Positions 53,693 through 60,062 of a stretch of DNA of 61,137 nucleotides are shown one piece after another. The notes beneath the pieces are model-generated. The model had not been told where the DNA came from. It did not search any database and saw only the letters and a program-made list of their open reading frames with translations. Made by a program: the position numbers and the translations under genes. Origin of the DNA: an uncultured Rhodospirillales bacterium. Lineage in GTDB: Bacteria; Pseudomonadota; Alphaproteobacteria; Acetobacterales; Acetobacteraceae. How positions within the stretch are numbered: position 1 is the first letter of the stretch; each line of letters starts with the position of its first letter. The stretch is from positions 1 through 61,137 of the forward strand of contig CAITOL010000101.1 of the NCBI GenBank assembly GCA_903893975.1. Reading direction: 5' to 3'.

Positions 53693-54100
53693 CTAACGCA
53701 CAAAAATCAGAATATCGTGCAGGCCGGCATCGGCCCGTGTGCGCAGTGCCAACCGCACCTGGCTCGCCCGCACCCCCTGGCCAACAATCGCCTCGGCGAT
53801 CTCGCGGGCGCCGCGCGATTGTGCACTCGCGTCGGCACCAGAGGCGATGCTGGCGACAACCTCGAACGCCGCATCGGTTTGCCGCGCCAGGCTGGCCTCG
53901 ACCAATGCGACAATCGCCGGATGCCAGTCTGGCTCCGTCGGCCCCAACCGCACCGTCAGCGCCGGTCGCTCCTCGCTCGTCACCCGGGCCAACTCCGCCG
54001 CCCCTGGTTGGCTCGGCGGAAAGAAGGTCCGCTGATCGACCAGCTTACAACCGGCAAGCAGGATCAGGGCAGCCAATGGCGGTATCAGACGGATATGCAT
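53693..54100 (-). CDS. Putative lipoprotein
   Basis: 135 aa with a type II signal peptide: basic start (MHIR), hydrophobic core PPLAALILLAGC and lipobox L-A-G-C18. Lys19 follows the Cys. The mature domain (about 118 aa) has an alternating helix/strand pattern (LTVRLGPTEPDW...IVALVEASLARQ) and the end VRLALRTRADAGLHDILIFVR. It looks like a small periplasmic outer-membrane-anchored domain, with no family recognised. It lies immediately upstream of the DMT exporter. Confidence 0.78.
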   Translation of the reverse strand: MHIRLIPPLAALILLAGCKLVDQRTFFPPSQPGAAELARVTSEERPALTVRLGPTEPDWHPAIVALVEASLARQTDAAFEVVASIASGADASAQSRGAREIAEAIVGQGVRASQVRLALRTRADAGLHDILIFVR

Positions 54101-54162
54101 GCAAACAAGCTTGCAGGAACCACGCCGGCGGGCAAGATGCGCCTATGTCACAGGAGCAGCGC

Positions 54163-55407
54163 ATGACGCAGACCAACCAGCGGATTGACGGTAAACGGCT
54201 TTGGGATAGCCTGATGGATATGGCCCGGTTCGGCGCCACGCCGAAGGGCGGGGTCCGCCGTCTGACGCTCACCGATATCGACCGCCAGGGCCGCGACCAT
54301 TTTCGCGCCAATTGCGAGGCCGCTGGCCTCACCGTGCGGGTGGACGCGATGGGCAACATGTTCGCCCGTCGTCCCGGCCGCGACCCGAACCGCCTGCCGG
54401 TACTGCTCGGCAGCCATCTCGACAGCCAACCCAGCGGCGGCAAGTTCGATGGCGCCCTCGGCGTGATCGCCGGGCTAGAGGTTATGCGCAGCCTCAATGA
54501 CCTCGGCATCACCACCGAAGCCCCGGTGGAACTGATCAACTGGACCGATGAGGAAGGCAGCCGCTTCGGCCATTCGCTCATGGGCTCCGGCGTATGGGCC
54601 GGGGTTTACGCGCAGGACAAAGCCTACGCCCTCACCGATTTGGACGGCGTCACCGTCGGGCAAGCGCTGCAGGGCATCGGCTATGCCGGCCCCGAACCAG
54701 CCAAGCCTTTCTCGGCGGACGCGTATTTCGAACTGCACATCGAACAAGGCCCGATCCTGGAGGCCGAAGGCAAGCAGATCGGCATCGTCACCGGCGCCCA
54801 GGCCCAGGTCTGGTACGATGCGGTGATCGTCGGCCAGGACTCCCATGCCGGCACCACCCCGCCCAGCGCCCGCCGCGATGCCCTGGTCGCTGCCGCCCGC
54901 ATCATCGACCTGGTGGACCGCAAAATGCGGGCCCGCGGCAACGATGGTCGCGGCACGGTCGGTCGGCTGCAAGTCTTCCCCAACAGCTGCAACGTCATCC
55001 CCGGCGAGGTGCGCTTCTCCGTCGAGTTCCGCCACCCCGACGACGCCGAGATCGCGCTGCTCGCGGGTGAATTTCCCGCCGAGGCCGCAGCCTTGGTGGA
55101 ACTGAGCGGCTGCCAGCTACACCTCACCGAACTGTTCAAAATCCCCGCCCAACCGTTCGACCCCGCTTGCGTCGATCTGGTGCGGCAAGCCTCCGCGCGT
55201 CTGGGCTACAGCGCGCGCGAAATCGTCTCTGGCGCCGGGCATGATGCGGTCTACGTCGCCCGCCACGTGCCCACGGCGATGATCTTCACCCCCTGCAAAG
55301 ATGGGCTGAGCCATAACGAGGCCGAGTCGATCGAGCCAGAGGAAGCCGCCGCCGGGTGCCAGGTGCTCTTCGAAGCCGTCGTCGCGCGGGCCAACCGGCC
55401 GCTATAG
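54163..55407 (+). CDS. Zn-dependent amidohydrolase (N-carbamoyl-L-amino acid hydrolase / allantoate amidohydrolase family, M20)
   Basis: Dinuclear metallohydrolase that cleaves N-carbamoyl or ureido groups, 414 aa. Metal ligands fit the hydantoinase/carbamoylase group: H85 in GSHLDSQPSGGKFDGALG with D96, the catalytic and metal Glu pair E130/E131 in NWTDEEGSRFG, H192 in FELHIEQGP, and the C-terminal His in DGLSHNEAE. The substrate-binding FPNSCNVIPGEVRF is also present. CAGGAG 6 nt upstream selects the ATG at 54163 over 54145. It opens a region with cytidine deaminase, an amidase and a CE4 deacetylase, all C-N bond hydrolases. Exact substrate unknown. Confidence 0.92.
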   Translation: MTQTNQRIDGKRLWDSLMDMARFGATPKGGVRRLTLTDIDRQGRDHFRANCEAAGLTVRVDAMGNMFARRPGRDPNRLPVLLGSHLDSQPSGGKFDGALGVIAGLEVMRSLNDLGITTEAPVELINWTDEEGSRFGHSLMGSGVWAGVYAQDKAYALTDLDGVTVGQALQGIGYAGPEPAKPFSADAYFELHIEQGPILEAEGKQIGIVTGAQAQVWYDAVIVGQDSHAGTTPPSARRDALVAAARIIDLVDRKMRARGNDGRGTVGRLQVFPNSCNVIPGEVRFSVEFRHPDDAEIALLAGEFPAEAAALVELSGCQLHLTELFKIPAQPFDPACVDLVRQASARLGYSAREIVSGAGHDAVYVARHVPTAMIFTPCKDGLSHNEAESIEPEEAAAGCQVLFEAVVARANRPL

Positions 55408-55782
55408 CCGGAAGGCGTTGGGCAACAGGTCGGCGACTGTCAGGTCGCCGACCCCGTCCACGTATACCGGCATATCCGCAGCCGCGAATTCGGCGATCAC
55501 CTGCCGGCACGCCCCACACGGCATGCGCGATGCCGCCGGCGCATCCGCCGCCGCATCCACACAGGCCAACGCCAGCGCCTGAATCCGCCGCGCCCCCGCC
55601 GCCACCGCCGAGAAGATGGCATTGCGCTCGGCGCAGATGGTCAGGCCATAGCTGGCATTTTCGACATTGCATCCCGCATAGATTTTCCCCTCCGCCAGCA
55701 CCGCCGCACCGACGTGAAACTGCGAATACGGGCAATACGCCTGGGCCGCGGCGGCCCGGGCGGCATCTCGCAAAGCTTGCAT
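55402..55782 (-). CDS. cdd: Cytidine deaminase
   Basis: Hydrolytic deamination of cytidine and deoxycytidine for pyrimidine salvage. Zinc motifs are intact: C50-A-E52 in GLTICAERNAI (with the catalytic Glu) and C89-G-A-C92 in PCGACRQVI; the ribose-binding NVENASYG is present. The ATG at 55782 with GGAGA nearby gives 126 aa; an ATG at 55809 is possible but lacks a ribosome site. It overlaps the upstream carbamoylase by 6 nt at the 3' ends and diverges from the RuBisCO-like gene with 62 bp between starts. No nucleoside phosphorylase or transporter is adjacent. Confidence 0.95.
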   Translation of the reverse strand: MQALRDAARAAAAQAYCPYSQFHVGAAVLAEGKIYAGCNVENASYGLTICAERNAIFSAVAAGARRIQALALACVDAAADAPAASRMPCGACRQVIAEFAAADMPVYVDGVGDLTVADLLPNAFRL

Positions 55783-55844
55783 GGCTGATCTCTCCGAACA
55801 GGTTGCCATTTGACGGGCGCGCGCCGCCGCGTCAAATCCCCATC

Positions 55845-56936
55845 ATGATCACTCGTCTGACCGCCACCTACCGCGTCCGAACCGACGCCGCGTCCATCGC
55901 CGCCCGCGCCCAGGCCATCGCGGTCGAGCAAAGCGTGGAAATGCCGCTTGATGCCATCACCGACGCCGCCGTGCTGCGCGACGTTGTCGGCCAGGTGCAA
56001 GATATTACCGACCTTGGCGATGGCAGCTTCGCCGTCCGCATCGGCCTGGCCCTCGCCAGCATCGGCACCGATGCCGGCCAGTTGTTCAACATGCTGTTCG
56101 GCAATGTCTCCCTGCAGGACGACGTGACCCTGCACGATGTCGACCTCCCACCCGAACTCGCCCGCGCTTTCGGCGGCCCCAATATCGGCATGGCGGCGCT
56201 GCGGACCCGCGTCGGCGCCACCGATCGCGCCTTCACCTGCTCGGCCATCAAGCCGCAGGGCCTGCCCGTGCCAGCCCTGGCCGATCTCGCCGCACGCTTC
56301 GCCGAAGGCGGGATCGACTATATTAAGGACGATCACGGCATGGCCGACCAGGCCTATGGCCGCTTTGCCGATCGTGTCCCCGCCATCGCCGCCGCCATCC
56401 GCGCCACCGGTGCCGCCACCCGATACGTGCCGTCGCTGTCCGGCAATCTCGACGCCATGCGCACTCAACTGCGCATCACGCAAGAATGCGGGCTTGATGC
56501 GGTCATCATCTCCCCCATGCTGGCCGGGTTCAGCAACGTGCAGTCCCTGGTGCGCAATTTCCCCACCATGGCCTTCTTCGCCCACCCCACCTTGGGTGGA
56601 GCCGCACGGATCGCGCCAGACCTGCTCATCGGCAAGCTCTTCCGCCTCCTCGGGGCGGACGCAGTCATCTTCCCCAACCATGGCGGCCGCTTCGGCTACT
56701 CGCCCGACACCTGCCGCCGCCTCGCCGCCAACGCCACCGGCGCCAACCCCGACCTCAAACCCGCCATCCCCGTTCCCGCCGGCGGCATGACCCTGGCCCG
56801 CACCCCGGAAATGCTCGACTTCTACGGCCGCGACGTCATGGTCCTCATCGGCGGCAACCTGCTGCTCGCCCGCGATCGCCTCGCCGCCGCCACTGCCGAA
56901 TTCACCCGCGCCGTCGCGCATCATTCCTACCGGTAG
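55845..56936 (+). CDS. RuBisCO-like protein (form IV, large-subunit homologue)
   Basis: 363 aa RuBisCO superfamily member that lacks residues needed for carboxylation, so it should catalyse an enolase/isomerase or other chemistry on a sugar phosphate. Aligning by motif: N87 (GNVS) matches N123; K136 in SAIKPQGL matches K175, but K177 is Q138; K161-D162-D163 in DYIKDDHG match the metal site while E204 is H164; H247 matches H294 but R295 is P248; S379 is A312 (PAGGM); loop 6 lacks the catalytic Lys. In R. rubrum such a protein isomerises 5-methylthioribulose 1-phosphate; other family members act in apionate breakdown. The adjacent cupin favours the first. Confidence 0.9.
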   Translation: MITRLTATYRVRTDAASIAARAQAIAVEQSVEMPLDAITDAAVLRDVVGQVQDITDLGDGSFAVRIGLALASIGTDAGQLFNMLFGNVSLQDDVTLHDVDLPPELARAFGGPNIGMAALRTRVGATDRAFTCSAIKPQGLPVPALADLAARFAEGGIDYIKDDHGMADQAYGRFADRVPAIAAAIRATGAATRYVPSLSGNLDAMRTQLRITQECGLDAVIISPMLAGFSNVQSLVRNFPTMAFFAHPTLGGAARIAPDLLIGKLFRLLGADAVIFPNHGGRFGYSPDTCRRLAANATGANPDLKPAIPVPAGGMTLARTPEMLDFYGRDVMVLIGGNLLLARDRLAAATAEFTRAVAHHSYR

Positions 56937-56942
56937 ACCCTC

Positions 56943-57446
56943 ATGGACCAGTCCCCCCCCGATCTACTGCGCCGCTCCCAGCCGGATTTCCGCTGGGACG
57001 CCGTGCCCGTGCATCCCTACAAAGAAGACCAGGTGGACGCGAACGGCGCCCCAGTGTTCAAAACCATCAGCCGGCAAACCCTGTTCAACGACCCCGCTCT
57101 GGCCTGCGACCTGCGGTATTTTGAGATGGAGGCCGACGGCTACTCCACGCTGGAGCGGCACGAGCACGCCCACGCCGTCATGGTCTTTCGCGGCCACGGC
57201 CACTGCCTCCTCGGCAGCGAAATCCGCCCCATCGGCCCGCACGACCTGATCAGCATCCCCGCCTGGACCTGGCACCAGTTCCGCGCCACCGCCGGGCAGA
57301 GCATGGGCTTCCTCTGCATGGTCAACCGCATCCGCGACAAACCGCAGATCCCAACCGCCGCCGAACTGGCAGAGATTGCGGCAGATCCCGCCGTCGCCCG
57401 CTTCCTTACCGGCGCCCCCTTGCCGGCAAGCCCGTCTGTCACCTAA
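56943..57446 (+). CDS. Cupin domain protein adjacent to the RuBisCO-like protein
   Basis: Single-domain cupin, 167 aa, with metal-binding residues H73 and H75 in LERHEHAHAV, a further His at 77 in place of the usual motif Glu, and H111 in WTWHQF. It has the conserved turn GHGHCLLG. In Rhodospirillum rubrum a cupin near the RuBisCO-like gene removes methanethiol from methylthio-xylulose 5-phosphate to give DXP. The arrangement here (6 nt gap, same strand) strongly suggests a shared pathway, though similarity to that enzyme is judged from memory and the substrate is inferred. The C-terminal 30 residues are Ala/Pro-rich. Confidence 0.87.
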   Translation: MDQSPPDLLRRSQPDFRWDAVPVHPYKEDQVDANGAPVFKTISRQTLFNDPALACDLRYFEMEADGYSTLERHEHAHAVMVFRGHGHCLLGSEIRPIGPHDLISIPAWTWHQFRATAGQSMGFLCMVNRIRDKPQIPTAAELAEIAADPAVARFLTGAPLPASPSVT

Positions 57447-57480: not shown

Positions 57481-57636
57481 ATGGCCCATGCCCCTTCGTC
57501 CAACCCCGCCCCGCTAACCGAGGAAGCGTTTTTCGCTGATCGCATGGCGTTCTGGTCGGGCTTCTGCAACTTCGCCACCGTCTGCACCGTGCTGCTGGCA
57601 CTGCTGATGGCCGCGATGGCGTTCTTCCTCGTCTAA
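57481..57636 (+). CDS. Aa3-type cytochrome c oxidase subunit IV-like small membrane protein
   Basis: 51 aa peptide with a short polar N-terminus and one helix (CTVLLALLMAAMAFFLV). The pattern LTEEAFFADRMAFWSGFCNFATVCTV resembles the small subunit IV of alphaproteobacterial aa3 oxidases (COX4_pro_2), where a D-R-x-x-F-W-x-x-F motif precedes the helix. Such subunits are short and normally near oxidase genes, but none is in this window. It starts 34 nt after the cupin gene and may be cotranscribed by position only. Resemblance is moderate. Confidence 0.6.
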   Translation: MAHAPSSNPAPLTEEAFFADRMAFWSGFCNFATVCTVLLALLMAAMAFFLV

Positions 57637-57665: not shown

Positions 57666-59057
57666 CTACTTGAGGTCGGCGATCGCAAACGGCGCGGCCG
57701 TTTCCAGCACCCGCGCCGCACGCAGCACCAGATCATCGCGGTAAATTGCCGCCCCGATCTGCACGCTGCGCGGCAAGCCGTTCTGGGCAAAGCCCATCGG
57801 CACCGAAATCGCCGGCTGCCGCGTCAGGTTGAACGCGCAGGTCCACGGCGCCCATTGCGTCCACAACGCTTCCACCGGGTTCACCGTGCGGGCATCCGCC
57901 AGCGGCGGCGGGTTCGGCACGGACGGGCACAGCACCAGATCATATTTCAGATGGAACTTGGCCATCGCATGCGCCGCCGCAATGCGCTGCGCCTCGAACG
58001 CCATCATGTCATCCGCCGTCACGCCGCTATTATGCGCCGCCACCTCCAGCAAGCCCGGGTCGAGCATGTGGCGGCTCGATTCGGGGAAGGACTGCACCAC
58101 CCGCGTCAGCGCCACCCCCCATACCCGATTGAAGATCGCTCGCGTATCCGGCAGGCCCGGATCGGCTTCCTCCACCTCGGCCCCAGCGTCGGTGAAAATC
58201 TGCGCCGCCTGCTCAATCGCCGCGATCCCCTCCCAATCCACCGGCGCGTCAAAGCCGGGGCGGCGCAGTACCGCAATCCGCATGCCCTCCACCCCGTTCT
58301 CTATCCCATCGCGCCAGTCCCGATTGTCGTCCGGCAGGCAGAACGGGTCGCGCAGATCATGCCGGGCCAGCGCATTCAGCATCAGCGCCGCATCGCGCAC
58401 CGTGCGCGTCATCGGCCCGGCCACCGCCACGGCGGCGAACGCCCCCAGCGGCCATTGCGGCACCCGCCCAAACGTCGGCTTCAACCCCACCACCCCAGAC
58501 CACGCCGCCGGAATCCGGATTGACCCGCCGGCGTCAGTGCCAATATGCAGCGGCCCGAAACACGCCGCCGCCGCCGCCCCGGCCCCGGCCGAGGACCCGC
58601 CGGGCGTGTAATGCAGGTTCCACGGGTTGCGGGTAATGCCATGCAACGGGCAATCGCCGGGGGATTTCCAGCCGAATTCCGTGGTCGTCGTCTTGCCGAT
58701 AATCACCGCCCCCTGCGCCTTCAACCCCATCACCGTTGGCGCATCATGCGTCGCCGGCGTCGGGTCAGACAGGCGGCTGCCCCGCCGCGTCGGGAACCCG
58801 GCCATATCAACCAGGTCTTTCACCGTCGTCGGCACCCCGTCCAACTGCCCCATCGGCCGCCCCGCCGCCCAGCGCGCTTCCGATTCGCCCGCCGCCGCCA
58901 GCGCGTTCGGGTTCATCACCGCGAATGCATTGATCTTCGGGTTCAGCCGTGCGACGCGTTCGGTCACCGCCTGCAAGGCTTCAACCGGGCTGAGAACGCG
59001 GCGCGCGAACAGCGTGATAAGCTCTTCGGCGGACATCAAAGCAGGATCTGTGGACAT
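57666..59057 (-). CDS. Amidase signature family hydrolase
   Basis: 463 aa Ser-cisSer-Lys amidase: K80 in TTVKDLVD, cis-Ser155 in GGSSAGAGAA and nucleophile Ser179 in GTDAGGSIRIP; the motif TPGGSSAG is complete. It should hydrolyse an amide or ester; substrate range in this family runs from acetamide to aryl amides and Glu-tRNA, but the absence of GatB/C partners and the truncated C-terminus favour a metabolic amidase. Longer frames reach 59366, but the ATG at 59057 has GGAAG 5 nt upstream. It diverges from the CE4 gene with about 80 bp between starts. Confidence 0.94.
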   Translation of the reverse strand: MSTDPALMSAEELITLFARRVLSPVEALQAVTERVARLNPKINAFAVMNPNALAAAGESEARWAAGRPMGQLDGVPTTVKDLVDMAGFPTRRGSRLSDPTPATHDAPTVMGLKAQGAVIIGKTTTTEFGWKSPGDCPLHGITRNPWNLHYTPGGSSAGAGAAAAACFGPLHIGTDAGGSIRIPAAWSGVVGLKPTFGRVPQWPLGAFAAVAVAGPMTRTVRDAALMLNALARHDLRDPFCLPDDNRDWRDGIENGVEGMRIAVLRRPGFDAPVDWEGIAAIEQAAQIFTDAGAEVEEADPGLPDTRAIFNRVWGVALTRVVQSFPESSRHMLDPGLLEVAAHNSGVTADDMMAFEAQRIAAAHAMAKFHLKYDLVLCPSVPNPPPLADARTVNPVEALWTQWAPWTCAFNLTRQPAISVPMGFAQNGLPRSVQIGAAIYRDDLVLRAARVLETAAPFAIADLK

Positions 59058-59135
59058 GCGAACTTCCGAGATGGCGTGTGACAGTGGGTGTCTCAACGGG
59101 CAGCATAGGCAAGTGGTGCAAAGAAGGAAGCCGGC

Positions 59136-60062
59136 ATGAGCGACACTCTGCAAGACCCAAACCAGGAACCACGCGGCGAACCCTGGCAGTGGCAGGAGAA
59201 AATCTGGCGCGAAATGGTGGAGCGCAGCCGCGCCGGCCGCAGCCTCGCCCCGTCCCGCTGGCCCAACGGCGCCCGTTGCGCCGTGGCGCTGGGCTTCGAG
59301 GCCGACCACGAAACCACCGCCCTGCGCGATGACGACGACGGCCCAACCCGGTTGAGCCAAGGCCATTACGGCGCCCGACGCGGCATGCCGCGCATTCGTG
59401 CGGCGCTCGAGCGGGAAGGGGTCAACGCCACCTTCTTCTATCCCGCCGTCGCCGCCCTACTGCATGAGGACGAGGTGCGCGCCGTCGCTGCCGACGGCCA
59501 CGAACTCGCCATCCATTCCTGGATCCACGAACGCAACACCCAACTCCCGTATGAGGCGGAACGCGATCTCAGCTTCCGCGCCATGGAACTGCTCGACCAT
59601 CTCGGCGGCCGCCCCCCGGTCGGCATGCGGGCGGCGAGCTGGGATTTTTCCGTCAACACGCTGATCATCATGCAAGAGCTCGGTCTGCTCTACGACAGCA
59701 GCCTGATGGCCGATGATGACCCGTATGAGCTGGAGTCCGATGGCGAGCCCACCGGCATCGTCGAACTCCCCCCCGAATGGATCCGCGACGACAGCGTCTA
59801 CTTCAACATGCAACGCTTCTCCGCCCTCCGTCCGCAAATGGCCCCCAGCGCAGTCGAAGATATCTTCCGCGCCGAATTCGACGGCGCCTGGAACGAGAAC
59901 GGCCTGTTCCTGCTCACCCTGCACCCGCACCTCATCGGCCATCGCAGCCGCATCGGCGTGCTGGAACGGCTGATCCGCCACATGAAGGCGAAGGGCTCGG
60001 TCTGGTTCGCCACGCATGAGGAAATTGCCCTCTGGTGCAAGTCTGAGGCCGAGCCCGCGTGA
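59136..60062 (+). CDS. Polysaccharide deacetylase (CE4)-fold protein, PuuE/PgdA-like
   Basis: 308 aa NodB-homology-domain protein. Metal ligands are D57 in FEADHET and the H-x3-H pair H127/H131 in HSWIHE. The extended N-terminus (QWQEKIWREMVERSRAG) and short motif 1 match cytosolic relatives such as allantoinase PuuE or Helicobacter PgdA-like proteins rather than secreted chitin deacetylases; there is no signal peptide. It may deacylate or open a cyclic amide. AAGGAAG precedes the ATG. Its stop overlaps the following small membrane protein gene (GTGA). Confidence 0.9.
   Translation: MSDTLQDPNQEPRGEPWQWQEKIWREMVERSRAGRSLAPSRWPNGARCAVALGFEADHETTALRDDDDGPTRLSQGHYGARRGMPRIRAALEREGVNATFFYPAVAALLHEDEVRAVAADGHELAIHSWIHERNTQLPYEAERDLSFRAMELLDHLGGRPPVGMRAASWDFSVNTLIIMQELGLLYDSSLMADDDPYELESDGEPTGIVELPPEWIRDDSVYFNMQRFSALRPQMAPSAVEDIFRAEFDGAWNENGLFLLTLHPHLIGHRSRIGVLERLIRHMKAKGSVWFATHEEIALWCKSEAEPA

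Follow-up and report, generated by a model that had tools for sequence, protein, structure and literature searches.

A RuBisCO-like protein (RLP) and a cupin encoded side by side in a 61,137-nucleotide stretch of DNA from an uncultured Rhodospirillales bacterium of the family Acetobacteraceae (hereafter the window) very probably constitute the enzyme pair of the methylthioadenosine (MTA)-isoprenoid shunt; we infer from sequence both their catalytic steps in this bacterium and the co-transcription of the two genes. Both enzymes and their pairing are already published. Across the genomes of this bacterial family, the RLP-cupin module appears to replace the oxygen-dependent acireductone dioxygenase route, a pattern which suggests that two salvage routes substitute for each other and which is the most valuable part of the find. 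If the assignment is correct, a relative of the acetic acid bacteria would salvage MTA without oxygen and could give off methanethiol, one of the volatile compounds in the sulphur cycle. A narrow literature search found neither RLP and cupin genome counts for the family nor a report of dioxygenase exclusion; a study of the MEP pathway based on KOfam models lists 181 candidate species that lack Dxs, 5 of which had both enzymes (PMC10663253).

The RLP frame opens with an ATG at 55845 and closes with a TAG at 56934-56936 (55845-56936, plus strand, 363 aa). The cupin frame, on the same strand, runs from an ATG at 56943 to a stop codon ending at 57446 (56943-57446, 167 aa), leaving a spacing of 6 nt. 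The original prediction of a form IV RLP followed after 6 nt by a same-strand single-domain cupin agrees with these open reading frames and with Pfam, where the RLP scores 57.4 bits against RuBisCO_large (cut-off 30.1) and the cupin 35.1 bits against Cupin_2 (cut-off 27.2). An NCBIfam search with the cupin at E 0.001 returned no match. The source genome (4.2 Mb in 202 contigs, 96% complete) contains a single match to PF00016, so no carboxylating RuBisCO was found in this assembly.

Assignment of the RLP to the DeepYkr type of form IV draws on its reading frame, its match to a solved structure, its model scores and its place in a tree. Among solved structures, 3qfw is nearest to it (E 6.1e-110, 50% identity), far ahead of 4nas (3.5e-37) and the MtnW structure 2oek (1.8e-29); 2qyg, RuBisCO-like protein 2, scores 72.9 bits. 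We take 3qfw to be R. palustris RLP1, with which its tree position fits: in a quick, midpoint-rooted tree of 129 rows (113 different), 3qfw is nested inside the Rhodopseudomonas group (supports 99*, 97* and 99*). The window RLP is among 127 rows, including 3qfw and eight Rhodopseudomonas loci, which are split from 2oek and 4nas with support 100*. The tree comparison proposed along with the original prediction thus places the window RLP with 3qfw and the Rhodopseudomonas RLPs and apart from MtnW, in a tree that left out the R. rubrum RLP, which fell outside the best 80 of 340 named genome loci compared, as well as proven OiaX and Photo RLPs. In the alignment of the same 127 rows, duplicates included, K161, D162, D163 and H164 are invariant and K136 is present in 126. 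All 127 therefore carry KDDH instead of KDDE, H164 occupying the position of the Glu in 2oek and 4nas; this Glu is presumably a metal ligand in RuBisCO. A carboxylase identity for the RLP was ruled out by this motif together with curated cut-offs, as the scores against three RuBisCO models were 94.4, 114.5 and 33.9 bits for cut-offs of 438, 497.45 and 489, respectively.

The cupin call draws on its reading frame, two solved relatives and a set of conserved residues. The best solved relatives are 3kgz (E 8.6e-49, 54% identity), which, like 3qfw, we assume to derive from R. palustris, and 3jzv (E 3.6e-48, 51% identity), which bears the R. rubrum name Rru_A2000. Judged by this similarity, the window cupin, a proposed 1-methylthioxylulose-5-phosphate methylsulfurylase, is orthologous to Rru_A2000, which serves R. 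rubrum as its cupin-type methylthioxylulose-5-phosphate sulfurylase (PMC4958253). Residues E71, H73, H75, H77, H111 and C125 are identical in all 119 cupin rows, a number that includes 3jzv and duplicates. From the cupin fold, the Glu and the four His residues are likely to bind metal; that C125 accepts the methylthio group is a guess. Rows entered the alignments with at least 330 aligned residues for the RLP (none of 126 loci dropped) or at least 130 for the cupin (2 of 119 loci dropped).

The original prediction staked the shunt on mtnP and mtnA being found elsewhere in the genome, and both are present above curated cut-offs (mtnP 314 bits, cut-off 275; mtnA 405 bits, cut-off 279), on two different contigs, neither of which is the RLP-cupin contig. 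Two matches to O-acetylhomoserine sulfhydrylase also exceed the cut-off. In the proposed pathway, MtnP would cleave 5'-methylthioadenosine to adenine and methylthioribose-1-phosphate, which MtnA would convert to methylthioribulose-1-phosphate. The RLP, as a 5-methylthioribulose-1-phosphate 1,3-isomerase, would then shift the carbonyl to give 1-methylthioxylulose-5-phosphate, from which the cupin, with glutathione, would remove the methylthio group to yield 1-deoxyxylulose-5-phosphate (DXP) and, ultimately, methanethiol. DXP is an isoprenoid precursor, and methanethiol could be returned to methionine by O-acetylhomoserine sulfhydrylase. This scheme is modelled on R. rubrum and R. palustris (PMC4958253, PMC5893883; reviewed in PMC6302742). 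Orthology of the cupin to Rru_A2000 and the presence of mtnP and mtnA support the earlier suggestion that the pair acts as in R. rubrum, as far as gene content can indicate. The search for mtnP covered the window's genome only; mtnA was matched in 33 of 34 family genomes with an RLP vs 142 of 166 others (none in G144, 85% complete; weakly in G193, 1.0e-29), and because the gene is nearly universal in the family its presence is weak evidence.

The two genes are consistently found together. A cupin homologue is encoded downstream of the RLP, in the same direction, in 29 of 30 family loci (the best 30 of 34 matches). The same holds for 77 of 80 named genome loci, which were the best 80 among 340 relatives, and for 13 of 16 other loci of the class. 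After removal of 16 duplicate RLPs from 126, a downstream cupin was found in 104 of 110 distinct loci, the window's own included, which argues that the pairing is not due to chance, at least among these best-scoring samples, as remoter RLPs may differ. The gap is wider in three named loci (244 nt in L107, 349 nt in L124 and 1386 nt in L112), and that in L112, from Methylocapsa aurea, indicates that an insertion between RLP and cupin may exist. Distances among RLPs and among cupins are correlated (r 0.637 over 117 rows, duplicates included; 500 shuffles gave at most 0.106), which speaks to joint inheritance, not function.

Six of the 110 distinct loci lack the downstream cupin. In the genome of L026 the cupin sits on a separate contig (G199:C30:23778-24236), and the retention of both genes on different contigs speaks for function over mere linkage. 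The RLP of L072 is the same as that of L168, and both loci stop about 39 nt past the RLP. Two loci from Eremiobacterota, L086 and L123, have no cupin at the locus; in L086 (2675-7140) the RLP adjoins a LysR regulator and is near RuBisCO large and small subunit genes on the opposite strand. The remaining two RLPs, L174 and L175, are 38% and 35% identical to the window RLP, have no cupin within their 4-kb loci and possibly belong to another RLP pathway. In these regions (L174 1453-3980 and L175 1492-4096, both on the minus strand), a gene upstream of the RLP, sharing 4 nt with it, encodes a transketolase C-terminal half; the N-terminal half is encoded before it, by a gene that is partly inside the locus. 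DXP synthase models also match the C-terminal half, with scores under their cut-offs.

A conserved third gene was considered as a candidate for the missing methylthio-glutathione reductase and dropped when open reading frames of at least 90 aa within 6 kb were clustered across the window and 80 loci. The largest clusters are those of the RLP (81 loci) and the cupin (77), and among the 45 largest no third gene recurs at a comparable level. Clusters present in 76, 37 and 26 loci all run on the opposite strand and, by strand and letters, were taken for antisense shadows; the next, found in 17 loci, resembles an ABC transporter ATPase by eye.

The distribution of the module within the family points to an exchange of salvage routes. 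Among 200 genomes of the family, the RLP is found in 34, and the cupin is present in 32 of these vs none of the 166 without an RLP. The two RLP genomes without a cupin (G113 and G129) have partial RLPs, of 137 and 312 of 363 residues. Acireductone dioxygenase (MtnD) exceeds its cut-off in none of the 34 RLP genomes vs 104 of the 166 others; one RLP genome, G143, does match the model but scores under the cut-off. By Fisher's exact test, which ignores relatedness, p is 3.6e-13 with genomes as units and 4.9e-6 with genera, and of 102 genera 16 have an RLP, 59 the dioxygenase and one has both. A class-wide sample of 385 genomes showed no signal of exclusion (dioxygenase in 0 of 17 RLP genomes vs 24 of 368 others, p 0.61), a test that is uninformative because the dioxygenase is rare over the cut-off there (24 of 385); three RLP genomes of the class, G279, G321 and G562, match the dioxygenase model with scores under this cut-off. 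R. palustris is reported to have a putative mtnD besides the shunt (PMC5893883).

Two characterized systems are closest to the pair in the window. In R. palustris, RLP1 (RPA2169) and the cupin (RPA2170) are likewise adjoining, the window proteins share half and slightly more than half of their residues with 3qfw and 3kgz, the presumed R. palustris structures (50% and 54%), and in eight of eight Rhodopseudomonas loci the cupin lies downstream of the RLP. For RLP1, function was demonstrated in vitro and in vivo; for the cupin, a deletion demonstrated it in vivo (PMC5893883). R. palustris also has the DHAP-methanethiol shunt, a second RLP of the Photo type and two RuBisCOs (PMC5893883), whereas one RuBisCO-superfamily protein was found in the window genome. 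The R. rubrum shunt, with RLP Rru_A1998 and cupin Rru_A2000, resembles the window in that a cupin 51% identical to Rru_A2000 adjoins the RLP and that mtnP, mtnA and O-acetylhomoserine sulfhydrylase are encoded elsewhere in the window's genome. It differs in that Rru_A0360 and Rru_A0361 are neighbours (PMC4958253), whereas mtnP and mtnA of the window genome are on two contigs, and in that the locus numbers skip A1999 between RLP and cupin, whereas the window genes are 6 nt apart.

Since RLPs are functionally diverse, the pair might act on a different sugar phosphate, either as an OiaX-type enzyme or on some other pentulose phosphate, its likeness to the shunt enzymes being one of fold only. The RLPs of L174 and L175, which adjoin a split transketolase in loci of 4 kb without a cupin, lend this reading some weight. 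Against it, the RLP reaches 60.1 bits with the curated OiaX model NF042437, whose cut-off is 700, and 91.9 bits with an MtnW model whose cut-off is 513.6, and the cupin beside it is orthologous to Rru_A2000 and kept in nearly all distinct loci (104 of 110). A different substrate is thus very unlikely, and the apionate-pathway grouping, which the original prediction had named among the outcomes that would overturn it, finds no backing in the OiaX score. Still less credible is that the RLP serves as the MtnW-type enolase of canonical, oxygen-dependent methionine salvage. An MtnW model does give its top NCBIfam match by E-value (2.1e-41), but both MtnW models, TIGR03332 and NF007095, are far from their cut-offs (91.9 vs 513.6 and 141.8 vs 409 bits), His replaces the Glu of KDDE, and identity to MtnW 2oek is 30% vs 50% to 3qfw. 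Furthermore, the genome (96% complete) has no match to acireductone dioxygenase (PF03079), and none of its four matches to MtnB (TIGR03328) exceeds the cut-off. The OiaX and MtnW identities were accordingly rejected by curated cut-offs, and the canonical pathway by the results for PF03079 and TIGR03328.

A less improbable alternative, though one we consider unlikely, assigns the pair to a minor side branch, most MTA being processed through the DHAP-methanethiol shunt by MtnP, MtnA and Ald2. R. palustris uses both shunts, and its ald2 is apart from mtnPA (PMC5893883). The window's genome does encode a class II aldolase (contig G000:C41; locus L005, 1375-2127, plus strand), a candidate Ald2 or 5-deoxyribulose-phosphate aldolase; among solved structures it is most similar to fuculose-phosphate aldolases, including 6btd (E 1.7e-38). 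This protein, however, reaches the cut-off in none of the 25 models listed of the 28 it matched, and its gene is on a contig that is neither that of mtnP nor that of mtnA. A DHAP shunt may also run in parallel with the isoprenoid shunt here. On its contig, the aldolase match (66721-66996) is about 7 kb away from an O-acetylhomoserine sulfhydrylase gene (58207-59466). Elsewhere in the same genome, at L004 (1171-3082, minus strand), a 3-oxo-tetronate-4-phosphate decarboxylase that scores over its cut-off overlaps a gene which, by eye, resembles its kinase.

Reasoning from chemistry alone, there is a slim chance that the RLP also takes 5-deoxyribulose-1-phosphate directly to DXP by the same 1,3-shift of the carbonyl, a conversion for which the cupin would not be needed. 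Such a substrate could arise by the action of MtnP and MtnA on 5'-deoxyadenosine, a by-product of radical SAM enzymes. Were this so, the Eremiobacterota of L086 and L123, whose loci have no cupin, would be specialists in this second route, which turns SAM waste into isoprenoids. A limited literature search found no statement of this activity of an RLP.

Further open reading frames flank the pair. Upstream of the RLP, at 53737-55809 of the window, are a carbamoylase-like hydrolase and a cytidine deaminase, which are shared with three relatives of the genus and unmatched in the remaining loci of the 126, many of which have just 1.5 kb of flank; they are a local arrangement outside the RLP-cupin module. 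Downstream of the cupin, on the plus strand at 57481-57636, is a 51-aa open reading frame with a hydrophobic tail, which to us is reminiscent of subunit IV of aa3-type cytochrome oxidase. It is unmatched in the other loci of the 126 and is 68-73% identical, over the aligned part, in three relatives of the genus.
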